Assembly (NCBI RefSeq): GCF_032842345.1
Contig: NZ_WBKO01000001.1
Location: forward strand, 248,001-312,000
DNA: 64,000 nucleotides
Reading direction: 5' to 3'
Source: Methanoculleus caldifontis
GTDB lineage: Archaea; Halobacteriota; Methanomicrobia; Methanomicrobiales; Methanoculleaceae
The translations under genes were made by a program, and so were the position numbers. Positions 12,662-17,659 of this stretch are shown piece by piece (within the stretch, counting starts at the first letter, position 1; each line of letters opens with the position of its first letter). The notes beneath the pieces are model-generated. The model made no database searches. It was given only the letters and a program-made list of their open reading frames with translations, and was not told the origin of the DNA.

Positions 12662-12904
12662 ATGCAGCAGGAGATCGAACCTTCGGCGGTCGTAGACTGT
12701 CTCGGGCTCTACTGCCCGATGCCGATCGCGCTGACGAAAGAAGGCATGGAGAAGATCGCCGTCGGCGAGGTGCTCGTGGTCGAGGCGGACGACCCTGCCG
12801 CGGAAGAGGATATCAAGCGCTGGGCGAACCGGACGGGGCACGAGATCGTGAAGTTTGAGAAGGATGACGGAATCCTGCGATTCTTCATTCGGAAGGTGAA
12901 GTGA
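12662..12904 (+). CDS. TusA-family sulfur carrier (CPMP type)
   Basis: An 80-residue TusA/YeeD-fold protein. The active-site loop DCLGLYCPMPI (about residues 14-24) holds the sulfur-accepting cysteine of the classical CPxP motif, plus a second cysteine five residues earlier. It is the first gene of a six-gene operon with two further TusA-like genes, a DsrE-like gene, an IscS homologue and iscU. The ATG at 12662 follows GGAAGGTGGACGAAG; a longer reading from 12578 adds a non-conserved lead. It probably passes persulfide sulfur between partners of this operon (inference). Confidence 0.9.
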   Translation: MQQEIEPSAVVDCLGLYCPMPIALTKEGMEKIAVGEVLVVEADDPAAEEDIKRWANRTGHEIVKFEKDDGILRFFIRKVK

Positions 12905-12905
12905 G

Positions 12906-13169
12906 ATGAGAGATAACATGATGTATGCGGATAAGACCGTGAACTGCGTGGGCATCTGCCAGTCGCCGATGCTCTCGATCGAGACCGAGATGGATGTGCT
13001 CGACGAGGGACAGATCCTCCAGGTGACGACCGACAAACCGGACCTCGTCGGGACGGTCAGGTCCTGGGCCGCGGATAAGGGACATACGATCGAGGAGGAA
13101 CTCGTCGCCTCGGGCGTGACCACCCTCATCCTGCGCAAGGGAGCGGCGGTCACGGCAGAGGCGAGGTGA
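12906..13169 (+). CDS. TusA-like protein with variant active-site loop
   Basis: 87 residues with the TusA fold pattern, but the loop reads NCVGICQSPML: the cysteine is followed by QSP instead of PxP, and the spacing to the first cysteine is one residue shorter than in the preceding paralogue. The downstream part (QILQVTTDKPDLVGTVRSWAADKGH) aligns well with TusA. The start is one base after the previous stop. Retention of the Cys argues for a sulfur-handling role with a different partner. Confidence 0.8.
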   Translation: MRDNMMYADKTVNCVGICQSPMLSIETEMDVLDEGQILQVTTDKPDLVGTVRSWAADKGHTIEEELVASGVTTLILRKGAAVTAEAR

Positions 13170-13173
13170 TCGG

Positions 13174-13404
13174 ATGGACGCCGACGGCTACGTGGACGCC
13201 AGGGGGACCTACTGCCAGGCCCCGCTCATCCTGCTCAAGGAGGGGATGGACAACCTTCCCGAACGCGGCGTCCTGAAGGTCGACGTGGACAACGCACCGA
13301 CCGAGGAGGACGTCAGGGTCTGGGCAAGGCGGATGGGCCACGAGATCGTGGGCGAGGAGAAGGCCGGGGAGAAGACCACCTTCTCCATCCGGAAAGGAGG
13401 CTGA
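13174..13404 (+). CDS. TusA-like protein with CQAP loop
   Basis: 76 residues and a third TusA-like member. The loop DARGTYCQAPLILLKEGM has the reactive-position Cys, CQAP in place of CPMP, and lacks the first cysteine (Ala instead). The helix LLKEGMDNL and the RRMGHEIV segment match the first paralogue closely. It lies four bases after the second copy and three before the DsrE-like gene. The three proteins thus share a fold but differ at each active site. Confidence 0.82.
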   Translation: MDADGYVDARGTYCQAPLILLKEGMDNLPERGVLKVDVDNAPTEEDVRVWARRMGHEIVGEEKAGEKTTFSIRKGG

Positions 13405-13407
13405 AGT

Positions 13408-13767
13408 ATGGCACGGATACTGTATATTCAGACGAGCGGCACCGATACCCCCGAACGGCTGTACGCACCGTTCGTCCTCGCGATGACGGCGCGCACCATG
13501 GACATGGACGCCGACATCTACTTCATGATCAAGGGGGTGACGGTCGTCAAGAAAGGGGCGGCCGAGAAGATCCAGGTCGGGAACTTCCCGAAACTCTCGG
13601 AGATGCGGGACCAGGCGATCGCCGCGGGGGCGAAGATCTACATCTGCGAGCAGAGCACCCAGCTCCTGGGTATGGAGCGGGGGGACTTCATCGAGGAAGG
13701 AAAGGTCGTCGGCGCCATAACCTTGAACGATCTCGCGGTCGATGCCGAAGCGGTCATCACGTTCTAG
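13408..13767 (+). CDS. DsrE/DsrF-like family protein
   Basis: A 119-residue DsrE-fold protein (ILYIQTSGTDTPERLYAPFVLAMTA at the N-terminus, then an alternating strand/helix pattern). Its one cysteine, in the strand-turn AKIYICEQSTQLLGM (about residue 75), is at the position used as the persulfide carrier in DsrE/TusD proteins. Together with TusA-like neighbours it fits a sulfur-relay unit. A homomultimer is expected because no TusB/TusC-like genes are present. The start follows AGGCTGAAGT with a three-base gap to the previous gene. Confidence 0.88.
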   Translation: MARILYIQTSGTDTPERLYAPFVLAMTARTMDMDADIYFMIKGVTVVKKGAAEKIQVGNFPKLSEMRDQAIAAGAKIYICEQSTQLLGMERGDFIEEGKVVGAITLNDLAVDAEAVITF

Positions 13768-13779
13768 GGAGGGCAGGGT

Positions 13780-14934
13780 ATGGCAGAGCGGATCTACCTC
13801 GACCACGCGGCGGCGACACCGGTCCGCCCGGAGGTCCTCCGGTTCGGGATGCGATTCCTCGACGGTTTTGCCGGCAACCCCTCGACGATCTACCGCGAGG
13901 GCCTCGAGGCACAGGCGGCCGTCGCGCGAGCCCGCGAGCAGGTCGCGGCGCTCGTCGGGGCGAGCGATCCGGGCGCGATCGTCTTCACGAGCGGGGCGAC
14001 CGAGTCGAACAACATCGCGATCCGGGGGACGGCGCTCCGGAACAAGAGGTCCGGGAAGGGGGTCGTGGCGAGTGCCGTCGAGCACATATCGGTCCTGAAC
14101 CCGGCAAAAGACCTCCAGAAGAGCGGGTTTGCCTTCACGCAGATCCCGGTCGACCGCTACGGCACGATCGATCTCGACGCGCTCGGGACGGCGGTGACGC
14201 CGGAGACCGTCGTCACCTCGGTTCAGTACGCGAACGACGAGATCGGGACGGTTCAGCCGATCAGGGAAGTCGCGGAGATCGTCCACGACCGGGGAGGGGT
14301 CCTCCACGTCGACGCCACCGATGCCGCGGGGAGGATGCCGATCGACGTGGAGCGCGACGGCGTCGACCTTCTCACCCTCTCCGGAAACCCGCTCGGCGGG
14401 CCGCAGGGGACGGGGGCGCTCTATGTCCGCCCCGGCGTCCGGGTTCAGCCGGTCCTCGTGGGGGGCGGGCAGGAGCGCGGTCTCCGGCCGGGGACCGAGG
14501 ACGTCTTCGGGATAGCCTGCATGGGGGAGGCGGCACGGCTCGCGGCGGCGGAGATGCCGGGGGAGAACGAGCGCCTCCGCGCGATCCGCGATGCGCTCAT
14601 CGCCGGAATCTCGGAGGTCGAGGATGCGTTCCTGACCGGCCACCCGACGGAACGGCTGCCGCACCACGCGAGTTTCCGCTTCTCCCGGATCGAGGGGGAG
14701 AGCATCCAGCTCGCCATGAACGCCTTCGGGATCGCGATCGCCACCGGGTCGGCATGCACCTCGCGGACGCTCGAGGCCTCCCACGTCCTCCTCGCGATCG
14801 GGCTCGCCCACGCCGAGGCGCACGGGTCGATGGTCGCGACGCTCGGCCGGAGCAACAGCATGGAAGAGGTGCCCCGGATCGTCGAGGCCGCGAGAGAAAC
14901 AGTTAAACGTCTCCGGGCCATTACACCGCTGTAG
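13780..14934 (+). CDS. IscS/NifS-family protein lacking the PLP lysine
   Basis: 384 residues with the overall sequence of a class-I cysteine desulfurase: LDHAAATPVRPEV start, TSGATESNNIAIRG, EH102 and the HVDATD178-181 region. The mobile-loop cysteine is kept (GSACTSR, Cys326). However, where the family has SGHK..GPKG, this protein reads SGNPLGGPQG, so the Schiff-base lysine is Pro204 and the His before it is Asn203; the Gln that contacts PLP is Asp181. It therefore probably cannot desulfurate cysteine. Archaeoglobus IscS also lacks this lysine (Asp there). A role as sulfur-accepting or scaffold partner of the adjacent IscU is inferred. Confidence 0.88.
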   Translation: MAERIYLDHAAATPVRPEVLRFGMRFLDGFAGNPSTIYREGLEAQAAVARAREQVAALVGASDPGAIVFTSGATESNNIAIRGTALRNKRSGKGVVASAVEHISVLNPAKDLQKSGFAFTQIPVDRYGTIDLDALGTAVTPETVVTSVQYANDEIGTVQPIREVAEIVHDRGGVLHVDATDAAGRMPIDVERDGVDLLTLSGNPLGGPQGTGALYVRPGVRVQPVLVGGGQERGLRPGTEDVFGIACMGEAARLAAAEMPGENERLRAIRDALIAGISEVEDAFLTGHPTERLPHHASFRFSRIEGESIQLAMNAFGIAIATGSACTSRTLEASHVLLAIGLAHAEAHGSMVATLGRSNSMEEVPRIVEAARETVKRLRAITPL

Positions 14935-14943
14935 GTAGAGAAC

Positions 14944-15333
14944 ATGGCGGACCAGGTAGGCTACAGCCAGAAGGTGATGGAACACTTCATGAACCCGCAC
15001 AACGTCGGGGTGATCGAGAACCCTGACGGCTACGGCAAGGTCGGCAACCCCGTCTGCGGGGATATCATGGAGATCTTCATCACGGTCAAAAACGACGTCA
15101 TCGAGGACATCAGGTTCCGGACGTTCGGGTGCGGTTCGGCGATCGCGACGAGCAGCATGGTGACCGACATGGCGAAGGGGAAGACGCTTGAGGAGGCGCT
15201 GAAGATCACCCGCGACGACGTGGCGACCGAACTCGAGGGGCTCCCGCCAAAGAAGATGCACTGCTCGAACCTTGCGGCGGACGCACTCCACGCGGCGATC
15301 GAAGATTACCGGGGAAAGCAGAAGGGTAAGTAA
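14944..15333 (+). CDS. iscU: IscU-type Fe-S cluster scaffold protein
   Basis: A 129-residue IscU/NifU N-terminal-type scaffold. The three cluster-binding cysteines are in GNPVCGDIM (with the conserved Asp), TFGCGSAIA, and KKMHCSNLA. The N-terminal YSQKVMEHFMNPHNVGVI is characteristic. It starts nine bases after the IscS homologue, completing the operon. Fe-S clusters are built on this protein from iron and a sulfur source, which in methanogens is often sulfide. No separate IscA or ferredoxin gene follows. Confidence 0.95.
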   Translation: MADQVGYSQKVMEHFMNPHNVGVIENPDGYGKVGNPVCGDIMEIFITVKNDVIEDIRFRTFGCGSAIATSSMVTDMAKGKTLEEALKITRDDVATELEGLPPKKMHCSNLAADALHAAIEDYRGKQKGK

Positions 15334-15511: not shown

Positions 15512-16414
15512 CTAGCACCGGTAGATCAGGGTCAGGATGGTCTTTGCGAGGTCCAGGCTTTTGCCCCGGTTGACCATGAGCGTGTCCAGGCGGAGGGCGT
15601 GCTCGATCCCGGCGGGGTCGCGGACGTCCTGGATGAAGACGTCGATGAAATCCTCGTAGAGGTCGCAGGTCCCGGCGGACGAGGGCTCTTTTCCGAAGGC
15701 CCGCATCAGGGCCGCCGCCGGGCCGCTGACCGGGGTATCGCCGATGAAGGGGCTGACGGCGATGACGCGTTTTTCCCGGAGCGCCTCCCGCACCCCGGCG
15801 CACTCGAGGATCGGCGAGATGCTCGTGACCGGGTTGCTCGGCCCGACGACAACGGCGTCGCTCGCCTCGATCGCGGCGAGGACCTCGTCGGTCGCGACCG
15901 GGAGCTCGTCGAACCGCCGGACCACGCCCTCGATCGCCACGTCGCCCCGGTGCTTCACCCAGTACTCCTGGAAGTGCATCTCGCCCCGGTCGGTCCGGAC
16001 GTAGGTCGTCACCTCCGAGTCGGTCATGGGGAGGACGGTCGCCCTGATATTGAGCCTCCGGCAGAGTGCCCCGGTCGCCTCCGTGAGGCTCATCCCGCCC
16101 CGGAGCATCTCGCCCCGGGCAACGTGGACCGCCCGGTCCTGGTCTCCGACGGCGATGAACTCGTCGATGCCGAGCCTCGCGAGGAGGTCATGGGTGATGT
16201 AGGTGTCGTCGCGGATCCCCCACCATTTGTTGGTGTCGAGGAGGTCCGCAAAGAGGTACATGACCGTGTCGACGTCGGGGGAGAGATGGTTGCCGGAGAG
16301 CCACATGTCCTCGGCCGTGTTGACGACGACCGCGATCTCCCGCTCGTCCAGCAGCTCCCGCATGCCGCGGAGGAGTTTCGGGGTCCCGGTGCCGCCCGAT
16401 AGGAAGGTTATCAT
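15512..16414 (-). CDS. cofD: 2-phospho-L-lactate transferase (coenzyme F420 biosynthesis)
   Basis: A 300-residue CofD, which joins the 2-phospholactate moiety from its guanylyl donor to Fo to give F420-0. The N-terminal nucleotide-binding [22 protein letters not shown] and [10 protein letters not shown] motifs are intact, as are [14 protein letters not shown] and [14 protein letters not shown] near the C-terminus. F420 is the central hydride carrier of methanogenesis. It is followed upstream on the same strand by a divergent paralogue after a 73-base gap that contains an AT-rich promoter-like stretch. Confidence 0.95.
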
Positions 16415-16487
16415 TGGATAATTAGCGTATCAGGCCCGGCTGTATATGTAATTTATCAATTATGCCGGGAAGTACACCGCCCCAGGT

Positions 16488-17393
16488 TTACGAAACGGCG
16501 TGTCGTATGACCGCCATGATGTCCCAGGCGAGCGATTCCGCCTGCCGCTCGTGGAGGAGGCGGGTCTCGAGGCGGAGCGAGCCTTTGACCTCGTCCGGGT
16601 CGTGGATGTCCTGAACGAAGACGTCGACGAAGTCCCGATAGAGCCGGAAGACCCCCGGAGAGGTCGGTTTCTCGCCGGCGGCGTACATCAGGGCGGCGTC
16701 CTTCGGGTCCGGCGCGGCGCTCCCCCGGAAGGGGGAGACCGCGACGACGAACGCATCGCGAAGGAGGTCCCGCATCCCCTCGCAGTCGAGGATGGAAAGG
16801 ACGCTTGCGGCCGGATGCGCCGGGCCGATCACCACGGCGTCGCTCGCCTCGATCGCCGCCCGGACCTCGTCCGTGACCGGGGGGCGAGCGGGTCCGGTGC
16901 GGACGAGTTCCCGGACCTCGGTGTCGCTGCCGGCCATCCGGTAGAAGAAGAGCGGGAGGCGTTCGGTCCCGGTGTCGACGAGGAGGGAGGCCTCGGCGTC
17001 GGTCGCCGGGAGGACCGTCGCCCCGATGTTGAGCGCCCGGCTCTGGACCCCGACCGCCTCGGTGAGGCTTTTCCCCCCGGAGAGGAGGGCCGCCCGGGCG
17101 ATCTGGACGGCCCGGGCGCGGTCGCCGACCGGGAAGGGCTCGCCGCCCCCCACCTTCGGGAGGTAGTTGTGGGTGGCGTAGGTGTCCCCCTTGATCCCCC
17201 ACCCCCGGCCGGTATCGAGGATGCCGGCGAAGAAGTAGACCGCGGTGTCGATCTCGGGCGCGAAGTGGCTCCCCGATACCGTGCAGTTCCCGGCGGTGGA
17301 CGCGACCACGGTGATCTCGGAATCGTAGAGGATCTGCCGGGCGCCCCGGATGAGGGCGGACGCTCCGGGCCCGGCCGAGAGGAAGGTGATCAT
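16488..17393 (-). CDS. CofD-family paralogue with altered active-site motifs
   Basis: 301 residues, clearly homologous to the adjacent CofD along its whole length (for example DTGRGWGIKGDTYATHNYL against [19 protein letters not shown]). The motif GGTGTPK is AGPGASA, NTAEDMW is STAGNCT, and [10 protein letters not shown] is GSAAPDPKDA, so residues that bind the Fo and nucleotide ligands differ. The ATG at 17391-17393 (MITFLSAG) matches the CofD start; the reading frame extends a further 16 codons without similarity. It may use another donor or acceptor, or be non-catalytic. It is probably an old duplication. Confidence 0.85.
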   Translation of the reverse strand: MITFLSAGPGASALIRGARQILYDSEITVVASTAGNCTVSGSHFAPEIDTAVYFFAGILDTGRGWGIKGDTYATHNYLPKVGGGEPFPVGDRARAVQIARAALLSGGKSLTEAVGVQSRALNIGATVLPATDAEASLLVDTGTERLPLFFYRMAGSDTEVRELVRTGPARPPVTDEVRAAIEASDAVVIGPAHPAASVLSILDCEGMRDLLRDAFVVAVSPFRGSAAPDPKDAALMYAAGEKPTSPGVFRLYRDFVDVFVQDIHDPDEVKGSLRLETRLLHERQAESLAWDIMAVIRHAVS

Positions 17394-17659
17394 GGTTGTG
17401 TGTCTTTGTACGTGGGGTGTCCGGGGGGTTAACAGTTTCATTCTGCCGGGGCGTGGGGGGATATTGCCGGGGGTTGAGTCTTGATGCTCTCGATCTCAGG
17501 GTCCCGGGCTCTCGCCCTGACATGGTTCCCGGCGATCCGCGTCGCAGTGCCGGCCGTGGGGGCGCCCATCTACGGGGTCCAGGTGCACCGGGAGCCGGAA
17601 TAGGTGAGTGGTTAAAATACGATTAAGATATAAGGCGAAAACAAGAACGGAAGAATACC

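Follow-up and report, generated by a model that had tools for sequence, protein, structure and literature searches.

The window, a stretch of 64,000 nucleotides from Methanoculleus caldifontis (contig NZ_WBKO01000001.1, positions 248,001 to 312,000), contains the gene order tusA-tusA-tusA-dsrE-iscS*-iscU, all on the plus strand. Here, IscS* is a protein with the NifS/IscS fold that lacks the PLP lysine; three TusA-family genes and a DsrE gene lie directly upstream of it, and an IscU gene lies downstream. TusA1 (12662 to 12904) contains Cys13 and Cys18 (CLGLYCPMP) and matches the Pfam TusA family at 2.8e-25 over 12665-12901. TusA2 (12906 to 13169; CVGICQSP) matches the same family at 1e-07. TusA3 (13174 to 13404; GTYCQAP), which has fewer than 80 amino acids and was read from the sequence, matches it at 8.9e-17. 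In these two proteins (12906-13404), CQSP and CQAP replace the CPxP of TusA1. Among the loci compared, tandem triplets occurred in no group outside the genus and family of the window; elsewhere, there is mostly one TusA. The DsrE-family sulfurtransferase (13408 to 13767; Pfam DsrE, 2.5e-18) contains Cys80 (YICEQS), and the IscU scaffold (14944 to 15333; NCBIfam TIGR03419, 209.7 bits, cut-off 187.9) contains Cys38, Asp40, Cys63, and Cys107. Next comes a tandem pair of CofD-like genes, encoded on the minus strand (15512-17441); the pair also follows the cassette in close relatives.

The sulfur-handling residues of these partners are conserved across the cassettes that we collected. The acceptor Cys18 of TusA is invariant (140/140), and DsrE's Cys80 is present in 104 of 105 proteins, with a gap in the remaining one. 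The IscU ligands are kept in all ungapped rows of the family, except for one change from Asp to Gln. An extra cysteine, five residues ahead of the acceptor (C13-x4-C18; 12698-12715 in the window), is found in 126 of the 140 cassette TusA proteins; Cys13 and Cys18 could form a disulfide.

The gene for IscS* (13780 to 14934) has an intact frame of 384 amino acids. An alignment to solved IscS and NifS chains confirms the replacements that the earlier note had proposed: relative to E. coli IscS, Asn203 and Pro204 (codons at 14386 to 14391) replace the phosphate-side His205 and the Schiff-base Lys206, and Asp181 (14320 to 14322) replaces the PLP-contacting Gln183. The persulfide cysteine (Cys328 in E. 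coli) is kept as Cys326 (14755 to 14757). A further loss, overlooked by the earlier note (as were the operon and how large the family is), is that Arg356, which binds the substrate's carboxylate, is replaced by Val352 (14833 to 14835; MVATLGR versus LRxxLGR). This arginine is present in none of 121 Lys-less relatives versus 30 of 30 Lys-bearing proteins. The same genome encodes three IscS paralogues (L002-L004) that are 49-51% identical to IscS* and retain the lysine, the histidine, the glutamine, and the arginine.

IscS* belongs to the class-V aminotransferase fold and sequence family (Aminotran_5, PF00266, 6.8e-67), and it scores below the curated cut-offs of the NifS/IscS equivalogs (412 bits for TIGR03402, cut-off 530.75; 335.5 bits for TIGR02006, cut-off 643.2). 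Among solved structures, its top match by sequence is IscS from Archaeoglobus fulgidus (1.7e-116). An AlphaFold2 model built from 38 rows has a pLDDT of 90.2 and a pTM of 0.91; the nearest structures in the PDB are 4hvk, 4eb7, 4eb5, and 4r5f, which are A. fulgidus IscS alone and with IscU, and the TM scores are 0.91-0.93 against the A. fulgidus structures when normalized by query length, and 0.92-0.95 against 4hvk. This bears out the expectation that the IscS fold was kept along with the persulfide cysteine, which is present in all 121 relatives. Confidence is low in the Cys loop (325-330), as might be expected if this loop is mobile.

No other lysine seems to be near the PLP: IscS* contains just five lysines, none of them within 7 residues in the sequence of any PLP contact, and going by sequence position, none would plausibly reach the cofactor. 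Could IscS* nevertheless be a PLP enzyme, either by holding PLP without a Schiff base or by using another residue as the base? Most of the PLP pocket is still present (His102, Thr74, Ser201, Asn152, and Asp178), and PLP is drawn in the A. fulgidus IscS-IscU complex 4EB5 (PMC9769115). However, the Schiff-base lysine and the substrate-carboxylate arginine are gone from 121 of 121 relatives, none of the five lysines is a likely substitute, and desulfurase activity was reported to be absent from A. fulgidus IscS (PMC7585200). We consider a remaining PLP-dependent activity to be very unlikely. The earlier suggestion that the protein gave up PLP chemistry thus holds for desulfurase chemistry, given that both the lysine and the arginine are missing, but not for loss of the cofactor itself, given the retained pocket and the PLP in 4EB5.

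To define the family, we scanned 84,980 species genomes with peptide patterns chosen to leave out the lysine site. This identified 115 relatives, and the lysine was absent from all 80 of those that we examined. Adding searches of the order, class, and phylum gave 121 distinct Lys-less sequences; L213-L215, which are other class-V aminotransferases, were left out. The lysine, the glutamine, and the arginine are absent from every one of the 121, while the persulfide cysteine, the stacking histidine, and the phosphate-cup threonine are present in every one. The phosphate-side histidine is replaced by asparagine in 120. At the lysine site, 101 have aspartate and 16 have glutamine; the window's protein has proline. 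The aspartate that contacts the ring nitrogen is kept in 103, and the other 18 have asparagine; this column (Asp178) is asparagine in other families of the order (L022-L039; HVNATAAAG). Judging from these columns, the losses are concentrated on chemistry and substrate binding and much of the pocket stays, because the lysine, glutamine, and arginine are absent and the cysteine, stacking histidine, and threonine are kept across the 121. Nor are the losses due to chance: the paralogues retain all four residues, and 121 relatives lack three of them.

With the active-site columns removed, the Lys-less proteins form a single clade (support 94/73, and 96% of bootstrap trees, for a clade of 55 rows); in a 21-row version with more Lys-bearing rows, the support for the same clade is 100/99. 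The archaeal holders are Methanomicrobiales, Methanothrix, Methanocellales, Syntrophoarchaea, Archaeoglobi, and Thermoplasmata. The family is also found in some Deltaproteobacteria, Zixibacteria, WOR-3, and Aminicenantes. Mis-binning does not explain the members from Deltaproteobacteria, as two of them lie inside chromosome-level MAGs of 2.5 and 5.1 Mb. Two single contigs may well be mis-binned: L117, from a Syntrophomonas MAG, groups within Methanothrix, and L057, from an Undinarchaeales MAG, groups near the window's family. These might also reflect transfer.

The closest known relative is A. fulgidus IscS (4hvk, 4eb5, and 4eb7, and the D199K mutant 4r5f), which shares the fold and the clade with IscS*. 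The earlier note had cited Archaeoglobus IscS as a case with just the lysine changed to aspartate and had proposed that the window's protein went further, with three cofactor residues changed instead of one. Neither claim holds. The motifs of A. fulgidus IscS (HIDATASVG, SSNDIYGPKG, and TLLLTLGR) have asparagine at the histidine site, aspartate at the lysine site, alanine at the glutamine site, and leucine at the arginine site, and the cysteine is kept. Because the same four residues were lost in both proteins, IscS* is a member of the A. fulgidus-type family and not a further step; the alignment rules out the idea that it has lost more. The replacements do differ (aspartate versus proline at the lysine site, and alanine versus aspartate at the glutamine site). 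A. fulgidus also has the IscU gene directly downstream of iscS and DsrE upstream, although TusA adjoins just one of its two copies, versus three TusA genes in the window. Another difference is that the window's genome has three Lys-bearing paralogues and A. fulgidus has none. When we searched the genomes of A. fulgidus (G268, a 100% match) and five more Archaeoglobi with PF00266, all of the NifS-type proteins were Lys-less, and there were no Lys-bearing desulfurases of this type (IscS or SufS) in the six genomes. Their other class-V proteins are distant aminotransferase types.

Across genomes, the Lys-less iscS is linked to the same partners. Of 120 loci, several of which lack a partner because they are cut by contig ends, 110 have TusA as a same-strand neighbor, 104 have DsrE, and 114 have IscU. 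For Lys-bearing class-V paralogues, the corresponding numbers are 0/26, 0/26, and 9/26. Fisher's exact test gives P values of about 6e-21 for TusA and 4e-18 for DsrE, which are only indicative because the loci share ancestry and kinship was not corrected for. We also searched in reverse, starting from DsrE, and found 30 close homologs in 197 genomes of the phylum. Twenty-five of these directly adjoin an iscS of the Lys-less type (the motif was read in 24, and the copy in G230 was assigned by 63% identity). The other five comprise one within 4 kb of iscS*, two with iscS* elsewhere in the genome, and two in genomes where iscS* was deleted. None of the 30 is beside a Lys-bearing iscS. Dead IscS proteins were known already; in a literature search whose reach excluded most subscription journals, we found neither a published tusA-dsrE-iscS-iscU cassette nor a description of how constant it is and how widely it occurs in archaea and bacteria.

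A second Lys-less type of IscS, from Methanosarcinaceae, has the motif SAHTIHGPRG: the lysine is replaced by threonine and the glutamine by histidine, while the histidine and the arginine are kept. The gene order is again tusA-dsrE-iscS-iscU (L263 4827-7584; L265 3397-5873). The Cys motif (STGSACFS) and the long IscU match IscSU1 of Methanosarcina acetivorans, whose IscS1 (MA0808) has been recorded as Lys-less (PMC7585200). Like IscS*, IscS1 has IscU downstream; unlike in the window, IscU of the related Methanosarcinaceae has a C-terminal FeS_assembly_P domain. The neighbors of iscSU1 were described as genes of unknown function (PMC7585200); given that TusA and DsrE lie upstream in related genomes, these neighbors are likely to be tusA and dsrE. 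The two Lys-less types lie apart in the best tree, which suggests separate origins, although the AU test does not reject a single clade (P value of 0.18).

Within the window's genus, the cassette varies. Cassette DsrE is absent from 18 of 35 genomes, and the operon is kept in 15 of the 17 that have it. In the other two (G022 and G028), iscS* was deleted with different breakpoints (L267 5690-5838; L268 5832-5983), leaving a C-terminal remnant, while dsrE and iscU remain intact and at least one tusA was kept. Because these two sister species dropped iscS* and kept its partners, any pathway of the cassette can do without IscS* as an intermediate there, and the other parts do not depend on it. An enzyme that generates the sulfur would fit these natural deletions less well than an accessory platform would. 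TusA1 is broken in G028 as well, so its cassette may be decaying. G028 also has an IscS paralogue (C1:174857-176008), 48% identical to IscS*, with an in-frame TGA.

These deletions raise the question of whether iscS* is a decaying remnant without a function in the genus. In addition, the lysine site drifts within the genus (P or Q), and conservation is lower for IscS* (80-83%) than for DsrE (85-94%) or IscU (90-96%). But the frame is full length, the cysteine is invariant, pairwise dN/dS is about 0.18-0.35, which indicates purifying selection, the operon persists in most genomes with cassette DsrE, and the family is old and wide. Loss of function across the genus therefore seems very unlikely, and with dN/dS well below 1, we do not favor reading iscS* as a pseudogene.

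Instead, we give roughly even odds to the reading that IscS* is an IscS without catalytic activity, which docks IscU and takes up or passes on persulfide sulfur from TusA and DsrE. Having lost the Schiff-base lysine and the arginine that binds the substrate, IscS* would no longer desulfurate cysteine; Cys326 and the IscS fold are retained. Sulfur bound as persulfide to cysteines in TusA and DsrE would be delivered to IscS*, or past it to IscU. IscS* would serve as a docking platform, a persulfide carrier, and probably a transient ligand of the cluster, which IscU would build. From the operon, we infer a single pathway and the order of transfer (TusA, DsrE, IscS*, and IscU); the first sulfur would come from sulfide or polysulfide or from another sulfurtransferase in the cell. 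This fits the pattern of losses, which hit the lysine, histidine, glutamine, and arginine while Cys326, the stacking His102, Thr74, and Ser201 stay. The linkage counts, the DsrE-based search, the kept cysteines of the relay proteins, the lack of Lys-bearing NifS-type proteins in the six Archaeoglobi genomes, and the matching gene order in Methanosarcinaceae speak for it too. TusA and IscU are both binding partners of IscS in E. coli (PMC2854127, PMC11302665), Cys321 of A. fulgidus IscS is a ligand of the IscU cluster (PMC9769115), and transfer from DsrE to TusA is known in Metallosphaera (PMC4175335). On the other hand, deletions in the genus left dsrE, iscU, and tusA without iscS*, and about half of the genus lacks cassette DsrE. 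Most Lys-less holders outside of the Archaeoglobi also encode a Lys-bearing IscS, from which the sulfur could come. And in E. coli, sulfur moves in the opposite direction, from IscS to TusA (PMC2854127, PMC11302665).

The E. coli direction is a reason to consider that sulfur might flow in reverse, from a canonical IscS via IscS* to TusA and DsrE, for the thiolation of tRNA or a cofactor. The three Lys-bearing IscS proteins of the window's genome could fit this. However, a Lys-bearing IscS or SufS that could act as the donor is missing from the Archaeoglobi that we checked, and the constant downstream gene is IscU, so we view reverse flow as improbable.

Another possibility is that IscS* is a structural partner only: it would stabilize IscU and lend Cys326 as a transient ligand of the cluster, as in the published model for A. 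fulgidus, the sulfur would be free sulfide, and TusA and DsrE would belong to another thiolation path encoded in the same operon. A. fulgidus IscS is again informative, as it lacks desulfurase activity and its Cys321 is a ligand of the IscU cluster (PMC7585200, PMC9769115). Sulfide can serve methanogens as the sulfur for their clusters (PMC10500019), and the loss of iscS* from cassettes that kept dsrE, iscU, and tusA fits separable roles. But the linkage of TusA and DsrE is nearly constant with IscS* and never seen with Lys-bearing IscS, which suggests one pathway. We think that a purely structural role is possible but rather unlikely. The fuller form of the relay, in which the cassette is a variant ISC system without a desulfurase, with inorganic sulfur fed to IscU via TusA and DsrE and dead IscS docking and relaying, seems plausible to us, at somewhat less than even odds.

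E. coli IscS (3lvm), with IscU and TusA, resembles this system in its fold, its Cys loop, and its partners, but it is an active PLP desulfurase. The E. coli tusA lies outside of the isc operon. In Metallosphaera cuprina, as might be the case for the cassette proteins, DsrE3A transfers sulfur groups to TusA via conserved cysteines, but thiosulfate is the group that is moved, and IscS and IscU are absent from the account (PMC4175335). The minimal FeS machineries of archaea, SMS and MIS, are also comparable: SMS needs no desulfurase to operate and is able to draw on sulfide (PMC12192291). However, SMS resembles SufBC, descriptions of MIS include a desulfurase, and TusA and DsrE are absent from the papers on both that we read.

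These results bear on how methanogens and related anaerobes make FeS clusters from sulfide. M. acetivorans without SufBC shows no visible loss, and without IscSU2 it shows only a cysteine-specific defect (PMC10500019, PMC7585200). The cassette probably includes the neglected IscSU1 and offers a concrete candidate for the sulfide route. It also suggests a reason for the long retention of a dead IscS, namely its link to TusA and DsrE, which are sulfur carriers without cysteine chemistry. If the cassette is indeed a variant ISC system without a desulfurase, Archaeoglobi would have no other IscU-type route, and in Methanosarcina the cassette would be a candidate for the unassigned sulfide-dependent route.
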